Source: a virus. From it: 21,318 nucleotides of DNA. Shown here one piece after another: positions 10,712-21,318 of the stretch (position 1 is the first letter of the stretch; every line of letters starts with the position of its first letter). Position numbers and translations under genes: made by a program. Under the pieces are notes generated by a model that was not told the origin of the DNA, did not search any database, and saw only the letters and a program-made list of their open reading frames with translations. Location of the stretch: positions 1 through 21,318 of IMG/VR virus record IMGVR_UViG_3300009790_000098; one strand, given 5' to 3'.

Positions 10712-11161
10712 ATGAGTTATAAAGGTAAATTTAAACCTAAAAATGGATATAAGTATTTAGGTAACCCAACTAATATTATTTATCGTTCCTTATGGGAGTG
10801 CAAGCTAATGATTTATTTAGATTCTCATCCGGATGTTATATCATGGGCATCAGAAGAGGTGATAATACCTTATAGAAGTCCTATTGATGGACGTAATCAT
10901 CGATATTTTCCAGACTTTTACGTAAAGAGAAAAATTAATGGGAAAATTAAAGAAACTATTATAGAAGTTAAACCTTCTGAGTATTGTAAACCACCTAAAA
11001 TGTTAGCTACAGGGAAAAAACCAACTAAGAAATATATTACAGAGGTCAGGCGTTGGGGCATTAATGAAGCTAAGTGGAAAGCAGCAACAGAATATTGTAA
11101 AGACCGGGGATGGGACTTTAAATTAATGACCGAAAAGGATTTAGGTATAACATATGGGTAA
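10712..11161 (+). CDS. gp4: Head completion protein gp4, nuclease-like fold
   Basis: The 149 residues match T4-like gp4 (about 150), needed to complete filled heads before tail joining. The start YKGKFKPKNGYKYLGNPTN and IYRSLWE are family hallmarks. The protein has TnsA/PD-(D/E)xK-like residues: E29 in SLWE, P67-D68 in HRYFPDFYV, and E85-V-K87 in IIEVKP. The core of a nuclease site therefore looks intact, although DNA cleavage is inferred and not established here. There is no clear ribosome site before the ATG, which lies 6 bases after a late-type box. The end overlaps the desaturase start by 8 bases. It is the first gene of the rightward operon. Confidence 0.86.
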   Translation: MSYKGKFKPKNGYKYLGNPTNIIYRSLWECKLMIYLDSHPDVISWASEEVIIPYRSPIDGRNHRYFPDFYVKRKINGKIKETIIEVKPSEYCKPPKMLATGKKPTKKYITEVRRWGINEAKWKAATEYCKDRGWDFKLMTEKDLGITYG

Positions 11162-11930
11162 GCGATTTCATAGTGCACTATTAATTAGATCTGTAAGATT
11201 TCTATGCCTTATTGGTTTAATACCTACATGCTTATTATTATCTAACGAATCAAATACTACAATCGCTATAGCTGTATTGTTAACTCTTATAATAGCTAAA
11301 GGCGGGCAACATATAGCACAGCATAGATATTTTTCTCATAGAAGCTTTGAGACAGGACCAAAAAGAGAATGGTTCTTAGGTTTAATCGCCACACTAAGCA
11401 CGACAGGATCTCCTATACATTATTCAGCTATGCATAGAACTCATCACAAACATTCTGATACTAAAGACGATCCACAAGCACCTCATCATGTAGGTTTCTT
11501 TAATGCATTCTTTGCTAATTTAGATTTTAATAAGATAGCTAAGAGCAGCATAATAAGAGATTTAATGCGCTCAAAACCTGCGATATTTTTCCATAATTAT
11601 TATTGGCATACCATTATAGTGTATTGCATCATACTTGCGCTTATATCGCCTGTATGGCTGTTATATGGCTATGTTTTACCGGTAGGTATAAGTAATATAA
11701 TGTCCGGATTATTAAATACAATTGTACATCAGTTTGGCTATCAAACTAGATCTACAAACGATATAAGTTATAACAATCATATAGCGCATATATTAACATT
11801 GGGTGAAGGCATGCATAACAATCATCATCATAAACCTAGCGCATACAATACTAATATAGATAACAAATGGTATGAGTGGGATCCTATGGCAATTATAATA
11901 GAAAAACTTTTTAAGGTACAAAATGGCTAA
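11154..11930 (+). CDS. Membrane fatty-acid desaturase, acyl-lipid/acyl-CoA type
   Basis: This di-iron desaturase would introduce a double bond into an acyl chain in the membrane using O2 and an electron donor that is not encoded nearby. All three histidine boxes are present: H57RYFSH62 (HX4H), H94RTHH98 (HXXHH) and H221NNHH225 (HXXHH, in the typical GEGMHNNHH context). Hydrophobic spans lie at ~15-50, ~75-90 and ~150-195, and the length of 258 is on the short side for the Delta9 group. It overlaps gp4 and the next gene by 8 bases each, so it is fully built into the late structural operon. That placement suggests late expression. It is an auxiliary metabolic gene, probably acquired from a bacterial host. 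Substrate and regiospecificity cannot be read from sequence. Confidence 0.9.
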   Translation: MGKRFHSALLIRSVRFLCLIGLIPTCLLLSNESNTTIAIAVLLTLIIAKGGQHIAQHRYFSHRSFETGPKREWFLGLIATLSTTGSPIHYSAMHRTHHKHSDTKDDPQAPHHVGFFNAFFANLDFNKIAKSSIIRDLMRSKPAIFFHNYYWHTIIVYCIILALISPVWLLYGYVLPVGISNIMSGLLNTIVHQFGYQTRSTNDISYNNHIAHILTLGEGMHNNHHHKPSAYNTNIDNKWYEWDPMAIIIEKLFKVQNG

Positions 11931-12567: not shown

Positions 12568-13512
12568 ATGGCAGGCTTCAATATATCAGATTTTAAATCT
12601 CAGTTTTCAAAGCAAGGCTTTTTAAGGCCGGATATCTTTATGATTACTCTTTCACCAAAACAGACTGGTGTAAAATATAAAAATGATATTCAATTAAAAC
12701 AAATATCTTTTTTAGCTAGCGCAGTTAACATTCCAGGTTTAACATTAGACATACAAGAAATTCAAAGACAGGGATTTGGTCCTATTGAAAGGAGAGTGCG
12801 TGGTGCTATATTTCCTATGACTGCAGTTACCTTTATGTGTGATGGTGATGGTGCAACACAACAATTCTTGCATGATTGGTTGACTACATGTATATCTACA
12901 GATATACGTAAAAATGAACATAACATCCATGGATTAGAAGGTAAACCTGATAGCTTCGGGCATTTTGGTGAAGTAGGCTATTATGATGATTACGTAATGG
13001 ATATGGATATTACTATATTCAGTGAAGTGGGTGGTGCTGAAGATAAAGGAACAGCTCAACAAAATAGAGCAATTGAAATGGGCAAGGAAAAAAAGAAGGG
13101 AGATATTACGATAAAACCTTCTACATTTGCTAAAGAAGCGGCTGATAAAGCTTCAGCTGCAAAAGCTAGTAAAAATGAGAAATTAAAAGGTGGAGTGATT
13201 AATTATCACTTACAAGATGTCTATCCACAAGTTATGGGTGATCTTAACTTAGGTTGGAGACAAACAGATGAAATATCTGAAATACAAGTACAGTTTACAT
13301 ATAGAACATATAGCGTCGAAACTGCAGTCAATGGTCAATCCATTGCAGAGAGTGAAGGCGGAAGAATGAATTTATTACAATTCATTTCGAAAATGAAAGG
13401 TGCATACGAAATTGTTAAATCAATTAAAAAGCCAAATAATGTTGGTGATGCACTTAATGTATTGAATAATACTAGAACACTATTCAGTGGGAAGAAATTA
13501 TTCGGTGGGTAA
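12568..13512 (+). CDS. gp54: Baseplate tail-tube initiator, gp54-like
   Basis: The 314 residues are close to T4 gp54 (320), which with gp48 caps the baseplate and nucleates the tube. The tube-like fold is suggested by IPGLTLDIQEIQRQGFGPIE, RVRGAIFPMTAVTFMCDGDG and the C-terminal QVQFTYRTYSVE. An insertion rich in Lys and Ala (residues ~165-205, including KKKGD and KEAADKASAAKASK) interrupts the domain. The ribosome site AGGA lies just before the ATG and 6 bases after the preceding stop. A divergent tube protein (gp19) is an alternative, but tube proteins are shorter (~160-200) and lack this insertion. Confidence 0.75.
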   Translation: MAGFNISDFKSQFSKQGFLRPDIFMITLSPKQTGVKYKNDIQLKQISFLASAVNIPGLTLDIQEIQRQGFGPIERRVRGAIFPMTAVTFMCDGDGATQQFLHDWLTTCISTDIRKNEHNIHGLEGKPDSFGHFGEVGYYDDYVMDMDITIFSEVGGAEDKGTAQQNRAIEMGKEKKKGDITIKPSTFAKEAADKASAAKASKNEKLKGGVINYHLQDVYPQVMGDLNLGWRQTDEISEIQVQFTYRTYSVETAVNGQSIAESEGGRMNLLQFISKMKGAYEIVKSIKKPNNVGDALNVLNNTRTLFSGKKLFGG

Positions 13513-13538: not shown

Positions 13539-14264
13539 ATGAAATTACCAAAAATTGATGTACCAACTACTACATATAAAATGCCAGTATCAGGTACACA
13601 AGTTGAGTTGAGACCTTACACGGTCAAAGAAGAAAAAATATTATTGTTTGCTCAGCAATCCGGAGCCGCAGAAGATGTTGGAAAGGGAGTTAGAAATGTA
13701 ATTGAAAATTGCATTATTAACGAAGTTGATATCGATAAACTTCCAGGTTTTGAAGTTGATCTTATATTTTTAAGATTAAGAGCTATGAGTGTTAATAATA
13801 TAATTAATGTAAAACTTAGATCAGAAGAAATAGCTGAAGACCCAGCAGATCAAAAGTATTACGACGTAGAAGTTAATCTGGATGAGGTTGATATTAAAAT
13901 TCCAGAAGACTATTCAGACACTTTAACATTAAATGGTGAATATTCGGTTAAATTAAAATATCCTAATTTTGGTGATTATGGTAACTTAAAAGTTAATGAA
14001 GAATCCCCACTAGACATTTTATTTGATATGGCTAGCACTTGCATTGATAGTGTCTTTAATGAAGATGAAGTTTTTATCTTCGCTGATTATGATGAAAAAG
14101 AACAGAAAGAATTTGTGGAATCATTAAGCAGTCAGAATTTCCAAGATATACAAGCATTCTTAGGAAATCAACCTGCTTTAGAACATGACATAGTATATGA
14201 TGCTGATGGAGAGATGAAAACAAAAACCCTGAGAGGGCTTTTTGATTTTTTTACCTCTGCCTAA
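13539..14264 (+). CDS. gp26: gp26-type tail assembly chaperone / baseplate hub protein (0-frame product)
   Basis: The 241 residues resemble the T4 gp26 family (208 in T4): an N-terminal strand region (TYKMPVSGTQVELRPYTVKEEKILL), then GVRNVIENCIINEVDIDKLP and DLIFLRLRAMS, and an acidic C-terminal half. The stop TAA lies inside a hairpin just after a run of seven T, so a fraction of ribosomes should shift to -1 and make a 297-residue fusion with the gp51-like segment. That places it with the paired tail assembly chaperones (like lambda G and GT) that coat the tape measure, which is consistent with a tape-measure candidate two genes downstream. A strong AGGAG site precedes the ATG. Confidence 0.78.
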   Translation: MKLPKIDVPTTTYKMPVSGTQVELRPYTVKEEKILLFAQQSGAAEDVGKGVRNVIENCIINEVDIDKLPGFEVDLIFLRLRAMSVNNIINVKLRSEEIAEDPADQKYYDVEVNLDEVDIKIPEDYSDTLTLNGEYSVKLKYPNFGDYGNLKVNEESPLDILFDMASTCIDSVFNEDEVFIFADYDEKEQKEFVESLSSQNFQDIQAFLGNQPALEHDIVYDADGEMKTKTLRGLFDFFTSA

Positions 14265-14282
14265 GTCATAGTGATTTAGGCA
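14246..14282 (+). promoter_or_regulatory. Programmed -1 ribosomal frameshift signal
   Basis: The slippery heptamer T TTT TTT is at 14246-14252 (0 frame: GAT TTT TTT ACC). After a 5-base spacer (14253-14257) comes an 11-bp hairpin: arm TGCCTAAGTCA (14258-14268), loop TAG, arm TGATTTAGGCA (14272-14282), with one G-U pair. The 0-frame TAA is within the 5' arm. The -1 frame has a stop at 14243-14245, just before the heptamer, and is open from there to the TAA at 14429-14431. Confidence 0.85.
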
Positions 14283-14431
14283 ACTATTACCAATTGATGT
14301 TTAATATGGTTCAACATCATAAATATTCTGTAACTGAACTTGAAAATATGTTCCCTTTTGAAAGGGATCTATATGTTGAGATGTTAATGGATCATCTCAA
14401 AGAACAGGCTGAGGCCCAGAAGAAACGTTAA
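14252..14431 (+). CDS. gp51: gp51-like C-terminal extension made by -1 frameshift
   Basis: This is the -1-frame continuation of gp26: 59 codons from TAC at 14252 to TAA at 14429-14431. The product begins YLCLSHSDLGNYYQLM and contains QHHKYSVTELENMFPFERD and EMLMDHLKEQAE. That HHKYS and PFERD pattern is what I recall for small gp51-like baseplate hub assembly proteins of marine T4-like phages. It has no convincing start of its own: the first ATG (14297) has no ribosome site and would drop the conserved SHSDLGNYY part. Expression as a 297-residue gp26-51 fusion is therefore more likely. T4 itself makes gp26 and gp51 from separate genes. Confidence 0.75.
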   Translation, partial: YLCLSHSDLGNYYQLMFNMVQHHKYSVTELENMFPFERDLYVEMLMDHLKEQAEAQKKR

Positions 14432-14831: not shown

Positions 14832-17204
14832 ATGGCCAGACCACGAAAAGACGGCACAGGTAATAAGCCAGGACTACCAAAAGGTAGTGGCGAGTTAGCT
14901 AATGCAGAAGCAGTCTTTGAAAAATGGTATAAAGGCAATCAAAAAGTCTTTGGCCATATAGCAGAACAAAACAAACAACTAAGTGGTTTGAATTCTAATT
15001 TTATTAAATTAATTGAAACCCTTATTACAGCAGAAGACATGAAGTCTGTTGCTGAAGCATTAAAAGCAGAAGGAGCTAGCAGTGACCTTGCTGCAGACTT
15101 TGAACCTTGGTTAGGTGAAAAATCGCCTATATTAAATCAACTAGTCATAATGACTACTCACTTGGAGAATTTAAATGGATTTATTTCTCCTATCTCAAAA
15201 TTCTTTACTGAAGCAAATGAAAACGCAGGACCTGGTAGTGTAAATCTATCTGGTGATAAAGATGGTGATGGAATCCCTGACAACTTACAGGGCGGTGGAG
15301 CCGGCGGAGCTGGTGGTGGTGATGGTGGAGGCCTAGGCGGATTGTTTGGCGGTATTGGAAGAGGTGCTGGAATGGCTATGGGTGGTGCTGGAGTATTAGC
15401 CGGTGGTGTTGGTCTTGGTGCTTTAGGTGTCGGTGGTGGAATTTGGCTAGCTATGGACGCTATGTCAAAATTTGATGGTGAAGAAGCTGCTCAAAACTAT
15501 GTTGACTTCGTAAAAAAACTTAATGAACTTGATGCTGGTGAAGTAGCTGAAGCTACTGCAATAATGACCACTGGTGGAATAGGTACGTTATTCTTAGCCT
15601 TTGGTAAAACTGCAACCATTGCGGCTGATGCAATAGAAGAGGTAAATGTAAAATGGGGTTCTGGTTTGACCGCAGCCCAAGCTATAAAAGATGATATTGA
15701 AGCATTAGCTAATATTGATATTGCTCCAGACATCTCAACATGGACAAAACTACAAGTAGGTCTACCACTAATAATGACAGCACTTGCTGCCGCTATGGCC
15801 GTTTGGGGTGTTGGAAAGACTGCTGCTAATGCTGCTGAAGGTATAGAGACTTTAAATAAATCATTCGGTGGTAGAAGAACTGCTGATGGTATTAAAGAAG
15901 ATATTGAAACATTATTGTCAACAAGTCTACAGAGAGCAGGTGGAGATAACTGGGGCAAATTAGAAGGAACAATGATAGGCCTGTCAGTAGCCATGGCTGT
16001 CTGGGGTGCTGGAAAAGGAGTAGCTGGTATTGCTGAAGGTATCGACAATTTAGCTAGCATGGGAGACGATGGTCGAAGAACTTCTGAAGGCATCAAACAC
16101 GATATAGAAACATTATTATCAACTGATATATCTAGAATGCATGGTCAGGATTGGGGTGAATTAGAAGGCGTAATGATGTCACTTGGTGCTGCTATGTCCG
16201 TTTGGGGTATTGGTGATGGTATTGCAGGAGTCGGCAGATTAGTAGAAAATGCTGCTAACTGGTCAAGTGGTGAAGCCGGTCATAAAACTAATGCTGATGC
16301 TATAAAGTATTCTGTTGAAACATTATTATCAACAGATTTAACTACACATAATTCAGCTGAAGATTGGGAAGAGACAGCTAAAGCAATAAGCGCGATAGGT
16401 GGTTCTATGGCAAGTGTAGGATGGGGTCATATCGTAAGTGGTATAGGATCCTTGTGGGATAATTCTGGTGGTGAAGATAACGTTACAAAGATTAAAAATA
16501 CAGTAGAACGATTATTACAAATTACTGATATGAGAGACGTTAAGCAACGTTCAGCAGATTTAAAAGTTATATTAAGTAATGTTGGCGATGCCATGACTGG
16601 TTTTGCAGTTGATGAATGGGGACAGTCATTTATGGGCTTATGGACCGGTATTAATAATTGGCTTTCTGGAGAAGATGGTATGATGGAGAGCTTTACAGCT
16701 TTATTAGAAGCTGGTGAGAATATAGGTGAGCTTAATTCTGGTATGGATATTACTAGAGAAAAGTTAAAGCTTTTCCAAGAGGGTGATTGGTCTATTGATA
16801 CTAATCTTAAAGAATTTGCACAGGACTTGAAAGACTCTGTACCAACCATGGAAGCAGCTATACTGGGTTCAGGTAAATGGAATCCTTTTGTAACAAACAT
16901 TGAAGGTTTAGCTAGTCCAAAAGTTGATTGGGAATTAGCATCAGATAGATTAGCAGGATTTAGAGTTGCATCAGGAAACATGACTATGGAAGATTTTAGT
17001 ACATATCAAAATTCAGTATTAGAAAGACAAAAATTAGACCTAATGAGTGTGATGTCTCGTATGGGCTATACTCAAGGCTTTATGAACCCAACTAATAATA
17101 ATACATCAATGAGCTCTACTGGTGTTCAAATTAATCACAATCAAGCAATGACTACTGTTGCATCAATAGCGCCTGTTTCTTCAGGCATGAAAGTCGGGCA
17201 ATAA
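14832..17204 (+). CDS. gp29: Tail tape-measure protein candidate (gp29-like role)
   Basis: At 790 residues it is the longest gene of this operon and lies just after the chaperone pair, the usual tape-measure position. T4 gp29 is 590 residues. Domains in order: a Lys/Arg/Gly N-terminus; helices with hydrophobic residues (~20-130); a calcium-binding-like loop D142-K-D-G-D-G-I-P-D150 (thrombospondin/dockerin type); a Gly-rich hydrophobic stretch (153-210) that may insert in membranes; then five related units of 63-70 residues (~240-610), marked by MAVWGxGK and GIKxDIETLLST. The C-terminus is Met/Asn-rich. The context is good evidence, but there is little direct similarity to gp29, so a different tail-length or ejection protein is possible. 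Confidence 0.65.
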   Translation: MARPRKDGTGNKPGLPKGSGELANAEAVFEKWYKGNQKVFGHIAEQNKQLSGLNSNFIKLIETLITAEDMKSVAEALKAEGASSDLAADFEPWLGEKSPILNQLVIMTTHLENLNGFISPISKFFTEANENAGPGSVNLSGDKDGDGIPDNLQGGGAGGAGGGDGGGLGGLFGGIGRGAGMAMGGAGVLAGGVGLGALGVGGGIWLAMDAMSKFDGEEAAQNYVDFVKKLNELDAGEVAEATAIMTTGGIGTLFLAFGKTATIAADAIEEVNVKWGSGLTAAQAIKDDIEALANIDIAPDISTWTKLQVGLPLIMTALAAAMAVWGVGKTAANAAEGIETLNKSFGGRRTADGIKEDIETLLSTSLQRAGGDNWGKLEGTMIGLSVAMAVWGAGKGVAGIAEGIDNLASMGDDGRRTSEGIKHDIETLLSTDISRMHGQDWGELEGVMMSLGAAMSVWGIGDGIAGVGRLVENAANWSSGEAGHKTNADAIKYSVETLLSTDLTTHNSAEDWEETAKAISAIGGSMASVGWGHIVSGIGSLWDNSGGEDNVTKIKNTVERLLQITDMRDVKQRSADLKVILSNVGDAMTGFAVDEWGQSFMGLWTGINNWLSGEDGMMESFTALLEAGENIGELNSGMDITREKLKLFQEGDWSIDTNLKEFAQDLKDSVPTMEAAILGSGKWNPFVTNIEGLASPKVDWELASDRLAGFRVASGNMTMEDFSTYQNSVLERQKLDLMSVMSRMGYTQGFMNPTNNNTSMSSTGVQINHNQAMTTVASIAPVSSGMKVGQ
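15549..16662 (+). repeat. Five-unit tandem protein repeat in the tape-measure candidate
   Basis: The unit anchors AIKDDIEAL, GIKEDIETL, GIKHDIETL, AIKYSVETL and KIKNTVERL have Ile at residues 285, 354, 421, 491 and 554 (spacings 69, 67, 70, 63). Units 2-4 share near-identical DNA around GAAACATTATTATCAAC (16105-16330; G for A once in the copy near 15905), which suggests recent duplication. Unit 5 is degenerate. Confidence 0.8.
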
Positions 17205-18305: not shown

Positions 18306-18877
18306 TTATTAAAATAATCTAATGTTATAGACTTATATTTATCAGTATTGATACTGAGAAACGGTCTATAATTAATAATTATACCATATTGTTCTTGCCA
18401 AAGCAAGTCATTTTTCAATTCTTTTTGCCAATGTTGAAAATAACCGACTAGCATGTCTAGTATAATCATTGTTTCGATGCAAATATCTTTACGTAGAAAT
18501 AATCTAAATAAAGTTGGATGACCAAACTTAGGCACCTCAAAATTGCTATCAAAATCTTCTTCTAGTTTACTGAGATCATCTTTAAATCTATATGTAAGAC
18601 TTTCTTGTCTCTTTTTCCAACTCATGTAAACGTCATCGGGCTGCGAAGCATTTATATTCCCGACATAGAAATCTTTACCACCTTCTACAAACTGAGCTAA
18701 TAGATAATTCTCAATATCTTTTTTCTTAGCCAACTTCATAAAAAAGTATTTGTCTCTTCTTGTCTCATATGAAGTTTCATTAACTTTCACTTTACCATTA
18801 TACTTATGATAATCATAGCTAGTGGTAAAATGATTCTTTAATGCTATATACTTTTGATATACTTCAAATGGACTCAT
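18302..18877 (-). CDS. gp59: Helicase loader gp59
   Basis: gp59 loads the gp41 helicase onto gp32-coated DNA. The match to T4 gp59 (217 residues) is clear: VYQKYIALKNHFTTSYDYHK, and RRDKYFFMKLAKK against RRDKYFFQKLSEK in T4, plus a C-terminal LLWQEQYGI region. I choose the start at 18877 (MSPFEVY, 191 residues) because the homology begins there and a longer start at 18925 would overlap the oxygenase by 62 bases. The chosen start still overlaps it by 14 bases. A GAGGGG site lies 13 bases upstream, a little far. The order gp33, gp59, gp32 is that of T4. Confidence 0.9.
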   Translation of the reverse strand: MSPFEVYQKYIALKNHFTTSYDYHKYNGKVKVNETSYETRRDKYFFMKLAKKKDIENYLLAQFVEGGKDFYVGNINASQPDDVYMSWKKRQESLTYRFKDDLSKLEEDFDSNFEVPKFGHPTLFRLFLRKDICIETMIILDMLVGYFQHWQKELKNDLLWQEQYGIIINYRPFLSINTDKYKSITLDYFNK

Positions 18878-19529
18878 AATGTTTATTGATCCCCTCAGGG
18901 AATAAGTCTGTATGTTCTGATTCATTCACTTCCTCTTTCCATTCTATAAATTTGTCTCTATGCACTAACCAAATAATTAATGCTTCTCTTGTTCCTTTAG
19001 TGACAGGCTCGACACCATGATATGTGTCTGAATCAAAAATAACCATATCACCTCTATCTAAATCTACTGGTGTTTTTTTACCATCACCAACATCAAGAAT
19101 AAATTGTCCACCTTCATATTCTTCTCTATCATTTAATCCGACAGATATAGACATCTCTCTTTGTGGTGCTATATTCTTTAGATAATCTTTTTCAGGATCA
19201 TCACTACGACCCATATAATAATTTAATCGATCTATATGCCAATCAAATTTACCACCTTGATAATCATGATACGTCTGAACTGACCATGGTTCTAAAAACT
19301 CATAACCACTATCATAATCTTTAGTATCCATAACTGCATCATGAACTTTATCTAAAAGTTCTATTGGCAAATCTCTGTAAGGATCAAATACTTTTGCTTC
19401 AGCTATTCTGCTAGTATCATATGACGCTGCTTGTCCTTTTGATATAGCGGCTTGCTGAATATATTCTCTTGGTTGTTCAAATAGTATTAGATCTTGATCA
19501 CTGAAATAATTTCGAAATAGTTTGTGCAT
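18864..19529 (-). CDS. 2-oxoglutarate/Fe(II)-dependent dioxygenase (PiuC/P4H type)
   Basis: The 221 residues have the double-stranded beta-helix core of the Fe(II)/2OG family. The metal triad is H98-x-D100 (DWHIDRLN) and H171 (TYHGVEP), and R181 (TREALIIWL) should bind 2-oxoglutarate. Upstream strands LEPWSVQTYHDYQGGKF and QREMSISVGLND...YEGGQF are typical of prolyl-hydroxylase-like proteins. These genes are common in marine T4-like phages and their substrates are unknown. It is inserted between gp33 and gp59, 6 bases after gp33, overlapping gp59. No ribosome site is visible, so translation is probably coupled to gp33. Confidence 0.9.
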   Translation of the reverse strand: MHKLFRNYFSDQDLILFEQPREYIQQAAISKGQAASYDTSRIAEAKVFDPYRDLPIELLDKVHDAVMDTKDYDSGYEFLEPWSVQTYHDYQGGKFDWHIDRLNYYMGRSDDPEKDYLKNIAPQREMSISVGLNDREEYEGGQFILDVGDGKKTPVDLDRGDMVIFDSDTYHGVEPVTKGTREALIIWLVHRDKFIEWKEEVNESEHTDLFPEGINKHYESI

Positions 19530-20284: not shown

Positions 20285-20294
20285 CTCATGTCAA
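20266..20294 (-). promoter_or_regulatory. Perfect sigma70-type promoter for the lysozyme-gp33 cluster
   Basis: On the minus strand, TTGACA (20294-20289) and TATAAT (20271-20266) both match consensus exactly, with an ideal 17-base spacer. The -35 contains the cyclase TGA stop. Transcription would start near 20259, leaving an ~18-base leader with the GGGAG ribosome site. This is a host-polymerase-type (early) signal. Confidence 0.88.
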
Positions 20295-21318
20295 CCTATT
20301 TTTGTAGGACTATATATTCTTATCTCTTCTTCTTTACCTTTAACCTTTATTGTACCAATTTCAGTATTCAAATATCCTTCAGGTAATTGTTCCATAGTAG
20401 CTCTTGAATAAATGGTTTTATGATCCAAGTATTCTCCTCTACCTGCAGTTGCTTCTAACCTAGCGGCAAGGTTGACTGCATCTCCAATAACCGAATAGTC
20501 AAATCTGGATTCACTACCCATGTTACCAACAATACAAGTCCCGGTGTTAACACCAGTGCCAACATTAATGTCAGGCAAATTACGGCTTTTGTAGATTCCT
20601 TTAAGCTCATTTATTTCTTCCTCAATTTCAATTGCAGATTTAATAGCCATCTCTGCGTGGTTCTCACACTCTAATGGTGCGTTCCAAAATGCCATGATAC
20701 AGTCGCCCATATATTTGTCGATTGTACCACCATTCTTTAAAATAATATTAGTCATTCTATTTAAGAACTCATTTACTAATTCTACTAGTCCTTCTGGATC
20801 GTCATTATTTTTATAATGCTCTGATATGGGAGTGAACCCGCATATGTCCATAAAAAGGAAAGTCATCTCTCTTCTTTCACCACCTAACTTTAATAACTCT
20901 GGATTCTTCTGTAACAAGGCTACTTGTCTTGGATCCAAATAAGTTTCAAACTGTTTCTTTATTTGTTGTCTTAATTTAAAGTTAGTATAGAACTGGACAA
21001 ATGAAGCATGACTAAATACTAATACTAAGGATATTATAATCCAAGTAGGATCAAAAAGCAAGTATGAAGAAAAGAAGATTTGCCAAGAAGCTACAGCGAC
21101 GCCGCCAATCAGCAAGACGGATACAATTCCAGAACTCAAAACGTTCGCCCATCTCACTAGAGCGAGAATCAGAAGACCGAGAATTAGAAGAATGGTTAGC
21201 TCAGCAAAAGGAAAATAATCCGGACGCTTAATAGTAGTACCATCAATTAATGTCTTTAATAGATTAGCTTGAACTTCGTGAGGATACATTTTGCCTAATG
21301 GCGTGGTAATTAATTGAC
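20291..21318 (-). CDS. Membrane-bound class III adenylate cyclase, CHASE2-type, N-terminus off the right edge
   Basis: The enzyme would make cAMP from ATP. Numbering from the internal Met at 21289: three membrane spans (~29-47, 52-69, 82-100), a linker (RQQIKKQFETYLDP, NPELLKLGGERRE), and a full cyclase domain. The residues needed are present: metal-binding D148 (FMDICGFT) and D196 (DKYMGD), adenine-selecting K192, S266 where bacterial enzymes usually have Thr or Asp, and N273 and R277 (VNLAARLE). The frame continues without a stop to the window end, adding QLITTPLGK before MYPHEVQANLLKTLIDG, which fits the end of a CHASE2 sensor domain. The Met at 21289 is thus internal. All catalytic residues are intact. 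Nucleotide choice (cAMP, cGMP or pyrimidine) is inferred. Confidence 0.9.
   Translation of the reverse strand, partial: QLITTPLGKMYPHEVQANLLKTLIDGTTIKRPDYFPFAELTILLILGLLILALVRWANVLSSGIVSVLLIGGVAVASWQIFFSSYLLFDPTWIIISLVLVFSHASFVQFYTNFKLRQQIKKQFETYLDPRQVALLQKNPELLKLGGERREMTFLFMDICGFTPISEHYKNNDDPEGLVELVNEFLNRMTNIILKNGGTIDKYMGDCIMAFWNAPLECENHAEMAIKSAIEIEEEINELKGIYKSRNLPDINVGTGVNTGTCIVGNMGSESRFDYSVIGDAVNLAARLEATAGRGEYLDHKTIYSRATMEQLPEGYLNTEIGTIKVKGKEEEIRIYSPTKIG

Follow-up and report, generated by a model that had tools for sequence, protein, structure and literature searches.

Tail assembly chaperones produced through a −1 frameshift have been described for long-tailed phages, including the gpG/gpGT pair of lambda (Levin et al. 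1993; Xu et al. 2004; both as described in PMC5009743). That older review treats T4 as an exception to the general G-T frameshifting rule and reports that, in E. coli, U_UUU_UUU is much less shift-prone than A_AAA_AAG (PMC5009743). PMC10885494, citing Vladimirov et al. 2022, describes T4-like phages that dispense with frameshifting and encode the short form and a longer fusion in two genes. Poly-T signals in T4-like phages have already been named as known (PMC12846349). The tail chaperones of Vandenendeviridae and Andersonviridae, with their GTTTTT site (PMC12846349), resemble the locus studied here in the poly-T nature of the signal, the −1 direction and a −1 frame that is uninterrupted family-wide, but the phage families and the motif differ. 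Systems of this kind are thus already known, and their presence in T4-like phages was published in 2022. The analysis adds to this the extent of the conservation, a downstream stem under selection and what appears to be a variant in Ackermannviridae.

The window, which is the whole stretch of DNA analyzed, is an entire virus-collection record of 21,318 bases with 34% GC. We propose, with a probability of roughly 90% and judging from sequence, that its gp26-family gene (Table 1) encodes both forms of a lambda gpG/gpGT-type tail assembly chaperone in a marine T4-like phage, expressed by −1 programmed frameshifting. The slip site is, on comparative grounds, almost certainly real. The chaperone identity is well supported; chaperone function, actual slippage and its rate are what we infer. 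The first-pass annotation had likewise read the locus as a lambda-style tail assembly chaperone made by a programmed −1 frameshift, and this reading is strongly supported by the comparison of the 123 junctions described below, and further by the tube gene upstream and by a predicted fold resembling that of tail assembly chaperones.

Table 1. Features of the gp26/gp51 locus and its flanking genes in the window.
Feature	Position	Strand	Basis
Tail tube protein, upstream of gp26	12568-13512	+	phrog_45, E 3.7e-24
gp26-family gene, short form of 241 aa, 0 frame	13539-14264	+	PF12322, E 2.5e-46; phrog_150, E 9.6e-53
Slippery heptamer T_TTT_TTT	14246-14252	+	in phase with the 0 frame as X_XXY_YYZ; 123/123 relatives have T_TTT_TTN
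Spacer, 5 nt	14253-14257	+	among relatives whose stems have at least 8 bp, most often 5-6 nt
Hairpin, 11 bp, likely frameshift stimulator	14258-14282	+	fold z −3.99; 0/200 synonymous resamples fold as well
0-frame stop TAA, within the 5' arm of the stem	14262-14264	+	sequence
−1 frame gp51-family tail, 59 residues post-slip	14246-14431, stop 14429-14431	+	phrog_634, E 6.2e-24
790-aa protein, probable tape measure	14832-17204	+	no family match; assigned by position

The gp26-family frame ends with the codons GAT TTT TTT ACC TCT GCC TAA, which phases the T run correctly for a tandem slip by −1. Open from 14246, the −1 frame reads FFYLCLSHSDLGNYYQLMFNMVQHHKYSVTELENMFPFERDLYVEMLMDHLKEQAEAQKKR and extends up to the stop listed in Table 1. 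The first-pass annotation had described the slippery run, a 5-base spacer and an 11-bp hairpin containing the 0-frame stop, and its coordinates are exact to the base; the 59-residue gp51-like tail it derived has the right length and is matched by the gp51 family profile, and its figure for the predicted fusion product is also correct (238 + 59 = 297 aa). Seven matches to a run of seven Ts, two of them overlapping, occur across both strands of the window, so that such a run alone is not rare here. A slippery heptamer followed by a 0-frame stop within 60 nt, with at least 60 open codons before it and at least 35 further open codons in the −1 frame, is present only once on both strands, namely at 14246-14252.

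In the proposed mechanism, most ribosomes would read gp26 and stop at the TAA, giving the 241-aa short form. The hairpin would pause a minority of them, which would move one base back on U_UUU_UUU, with both Phe tRNAs re-pairing, and enter the gp51 frame, so that their product is the 297-aa long form. If the two forms act as gpG and gpGT do in lambda, many copies of the short form may coat the tape measure protein and the rarer long form may recruit tail tube subunits, both departing before the tail is finished. The site differs from the lambda gpG/gpGT type in that its heptamer is poly-T.

The identity of the two parts is indicated by profile searches. PF12322 matches the 0-frame product with 158.6 bits (cut-off 24.5) over profile positions 2-218 of 219, and phrog_634, the gp51 family, matches the −1 segment over positions 56-114 of 121. 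Relatives of gp26 occur in 878 annotated phage records (E up to 1e-5) and relatives of the gp51 tail in 551 (E up to 0.01). Profile searches with gp26 or gp51 against the sequences of solved structures returned nothing convincing. A structure model of gp26 built from 44 relatives (pLDDT 91.8) was compared with solved chains and matched 3fgx with Z 8.2 and gp13, the tail assembly chaperone of HK97 (2ob9), with Z 7.6, the next chain having Z 2.6; Z values of 7-8 can arise without relationship, and we regard this fit of a predicted model as supportive. About 85 residues are aligned, all within the N-terminal ~95 residues, and Foldseek alone gives a weak match of the model to 2ob9 (E 2.6, probability 0.41). 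The gp26 domain of the window is also larger than the HK97 chaperone, 241 aa against a chain of 107 residues, and is matched in part. For the model of the gp51 tail (pLDDT 76, pTM 0.46), a structural match was not found.

The comparison with T4 is instructive for the long form. T4 gp51 (249 aa) contains PF12322 at residues 1-201 (E 4e-52) followed by a C-terminal gp51 tail, and this tail is absent from T4 gp26. Since gp51 combines a gp26-like domain with the tail and gp26 lacks the tail, the short and long forms of T4 are encoded by two genes. These genes are separate and divergent, and those of an Aeromonas Tulanevirus are arranged likewise. The window and T4 therefore share the same two protein families, with an N-terminal domain common to the short and long forms, but the long form comes from a separate, divergently oriented gene in T4 and would come from a −1 frameshift within one gene in the window. 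Vladimirov, Gautam and Davidson reportedly assigned genes 26 and 51 as the T4-like tail assembly chaperones in 2022 (Virology 566:9-15), and our profile results are consistent with that assignment. The first-pass annotation had suggested that the junction would link T4 genes 26 and 51 to lambda-style chaperones; the domain make-up of T4 gp51 supports the link, but it is not new, having been published in 2022, as cited in PMC10885494 and PMC12846349.

In two viral-contig scans, three reference phages and the window, an intact junction was found at 123 loci, whose gp26 diverges down to about 27% identity; removal of near-duplicates left 89 junctions. T_TTT_TTN is in register in all 123 (last base T in 68, C in 52 and A in 3), and all of them have the gp51 tail, 55-68 aa long, in the −1 frame. 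In most, the 0-frame stop starts 10 or 16 nt past the start of the heptamer. A preceding wobble T together with TTT as the first Phe codon is found in 89/89 junctions. If synonymous codons were drawn as these genes use them, and phylogeny is ignored, the two together would have a probability near 10^-31, a figure overstated through the relatedness of the loci but clear in its direction. The T_TTT_TTN junction is present in KVP40, pf16, DLP6, AF3, Astolliot, IG49 and an Aeromonas phage, none of them a cyanophage, as well as in the freshwater cyanophage BUCT-ZZ01.

The gp51 tail could instead be a separate small protein, translated from its own start codon or by re-initiation past the gp26 stop. 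S-PM2, P-SSM2, phiM12 and others are annotated with a gp51 start of its own, and some junctions contain an ATG near the gp26 stop. In the window, however, the first starts in the −1 frame (TTG 14294 and ATG 14297) follow 16 mostly conserved residues and have no Shine-Dalgarno-like sequence. Across the family, a start with a Shine-Dalgarno-like sequence occurs within the first 14 codons in only 3 of 123 junctions, and on this survey an independent gp51 start was rejected. The conserved −1 frame opens at the heptamer, and every plausible start codon lies further downstream; residues F1, F2, H8, L11 and Y15, which lie ahead of such starts, are invariant or nearly so, and among the matches listed the gp51-tail alignments begin at the first −1-frame residue in nearly all cases. 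A separate gp51 gene would not need an invariant T run in register. Many records do annotate gp51 as independent, the case that the first-pass annotation named as refuting, but this independence is superficial because the −1 frame begins at the heptamer and the truly separate gp51 of T4 includes a full gp26-like domain. We consider separate translation of the tail improbable.

With frameshifting as the preferred reading, the small separate gene that annotations of hundreds of marine phages call "baseplate hub assembly catalyst gp51" most probably encodes the C-terminus of a long chaperone made by frameshifting. Gene calls and proteomic searches that rely on the annotated gp51 start do not see the junction. 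Cyanophage gp51 has been described as short of about 200 N-terminal residues (PMC3037559). It looked truncated because the missing part is gp26, which the frameshift would supply.

The RNA downstream of the heptamer was examined as well. In the window, 14258-14268 is predicted to pair with 14272-14282 around a 3-nt loop, and the 68-nt stretch starting at 14253 folds with −19.8 kcal/mol (the z in Table 1 being relative to dinucleotide shuffles). The mean fold z over the 45 nt past the heptamer is −1.38, compared with −0.39 for stretches elsewhere in these loci. When codons of the −1 frame were resampled, structure exceeded the synonymous expectation (lowest 5%, p below 0.05) at 39/89 sites versus 9/89 controls, the control being a stretch 60 nt further downstream. 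The same test with the codon usage of each locus gave 37 versus 10 of 89 (Mann-Whitney p 3e-11). This family-level excess over synonymous resampling indicates that RNA structure after the T run is under selection. Stems of at least 8 bp are predicted in 47/89 junctions and start mostly 5 or 6 nt past the heptamer (5 in the window). A clear stem is absent in roughly half of the junctions, stem sequences vary between lineages, and a comparison of mean pairing yielded no single stem common to the 89. A downstream stem is accordingly best described as favored in the gp26/gp51 family, as predicted from these folds, and not universal. The position of the window's stem is common to two relatives (L005 and L006). 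Its nearest relatives show two differences in the stem, one strengthening and one breaking a pair, and no compensatory change. Of the covariation of heptamer, spacer and stem that might be sought in relatives, the invariant heptamer and the common 5-6 nt spacing were found, but no compensatory change in the window's own stem among its nearest relatives; support for the stem therefore comes from the family-level statistics.

A fusion could also arise if RNA polymerase slipped on the T run and produced mixed mRNAs. Slippage of bacterial polymerases on homopolymer runs is known, and the run in the window comprises seven Ts. We judge this transcriptional route very unlikely because about half of the junctions carry only six Ts, either as TTTTTTC (41/89) or as TTTTTTA (3/89), which is short for efficient slippage. 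Moreover, the run keeps a strict codon register, and selected RNA structure past it is the expectation for ribosomal frameshifting. There is a negligible chance that the frame break merely reflects faulty sequencing, or a mutation that disabled and split one gene: homopolymer runs are prone to errors and the long form of T4 is in a single frame, but the identical frame break and site recur in 123 loci and in several independently sequenced isolates, among them KVP40, S-PM2 and phiM12, and this conservation already refutes it.

The −1-frame gp51-like tail is apparently also kept in Ackermannviridae behind a different shift site. In three loci of this family (L134, L139 and L144) and in Vibrio phage D509 (L138), the gp26 stop is followed by 52-57 open codons in the −1 frame, which encode a gp51-like tail (phrog_9633; in Serratia 3M, phrog_634 with E 8e-8). 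The shift site in these four loci is NTT TTC, with no T6 run; that of Serratia 3M is G_GTT_TTC, which we take to be the shift site of T7 gene 10. Tails of this type occur in 280 phage records, and the annotation at this place often lists gp26 alone. Considering T4-like phages and Ackermannviridae together, the chances seem even that the ancestral state was a frameshifted gp26/gp51 pair. The two genes of T4 would then have arisen later by duplication and fusion, and the shift signals would have been exchanged between T_TTT_TTN, often with a stem, and NTT_TTC, with the −1 direction kept.

The gene order around the locus can be compared with that of reference phages. Genes of S-PM2 and phiM12 at the corresponding downstream position match tape-measure families. 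For the 790-aa neighbor in the window, profile searches found no family and BLASTP gave no tie to the tape-measure-like gene of phiM12. The S-PM2 gene after gp51 (L002, 3182-6180) is tape-measure-like and also matches peptidase and endolysin families; a length ruler and a cell-wall enzyme may be joined there in one protein.

Several other genes of the window can be identified from their domains. A fatty acid desaturase (11154-11930, + strand; PF00487, E 8e-16) lies between the head closure and DNA end protector genes, and a 2OG-Fe(II) oxygenase (18864-19529, − strand; PF13640, E 3e-12) adjoins the gp59 helicase loader gene. At the contig end, beside T4-like genes, is a class III adenylate/guanylate cyclase catalytic domain (20291-21289, − strand; PF00211, E 4e-20), which to our knowledge is unusual in a phage.
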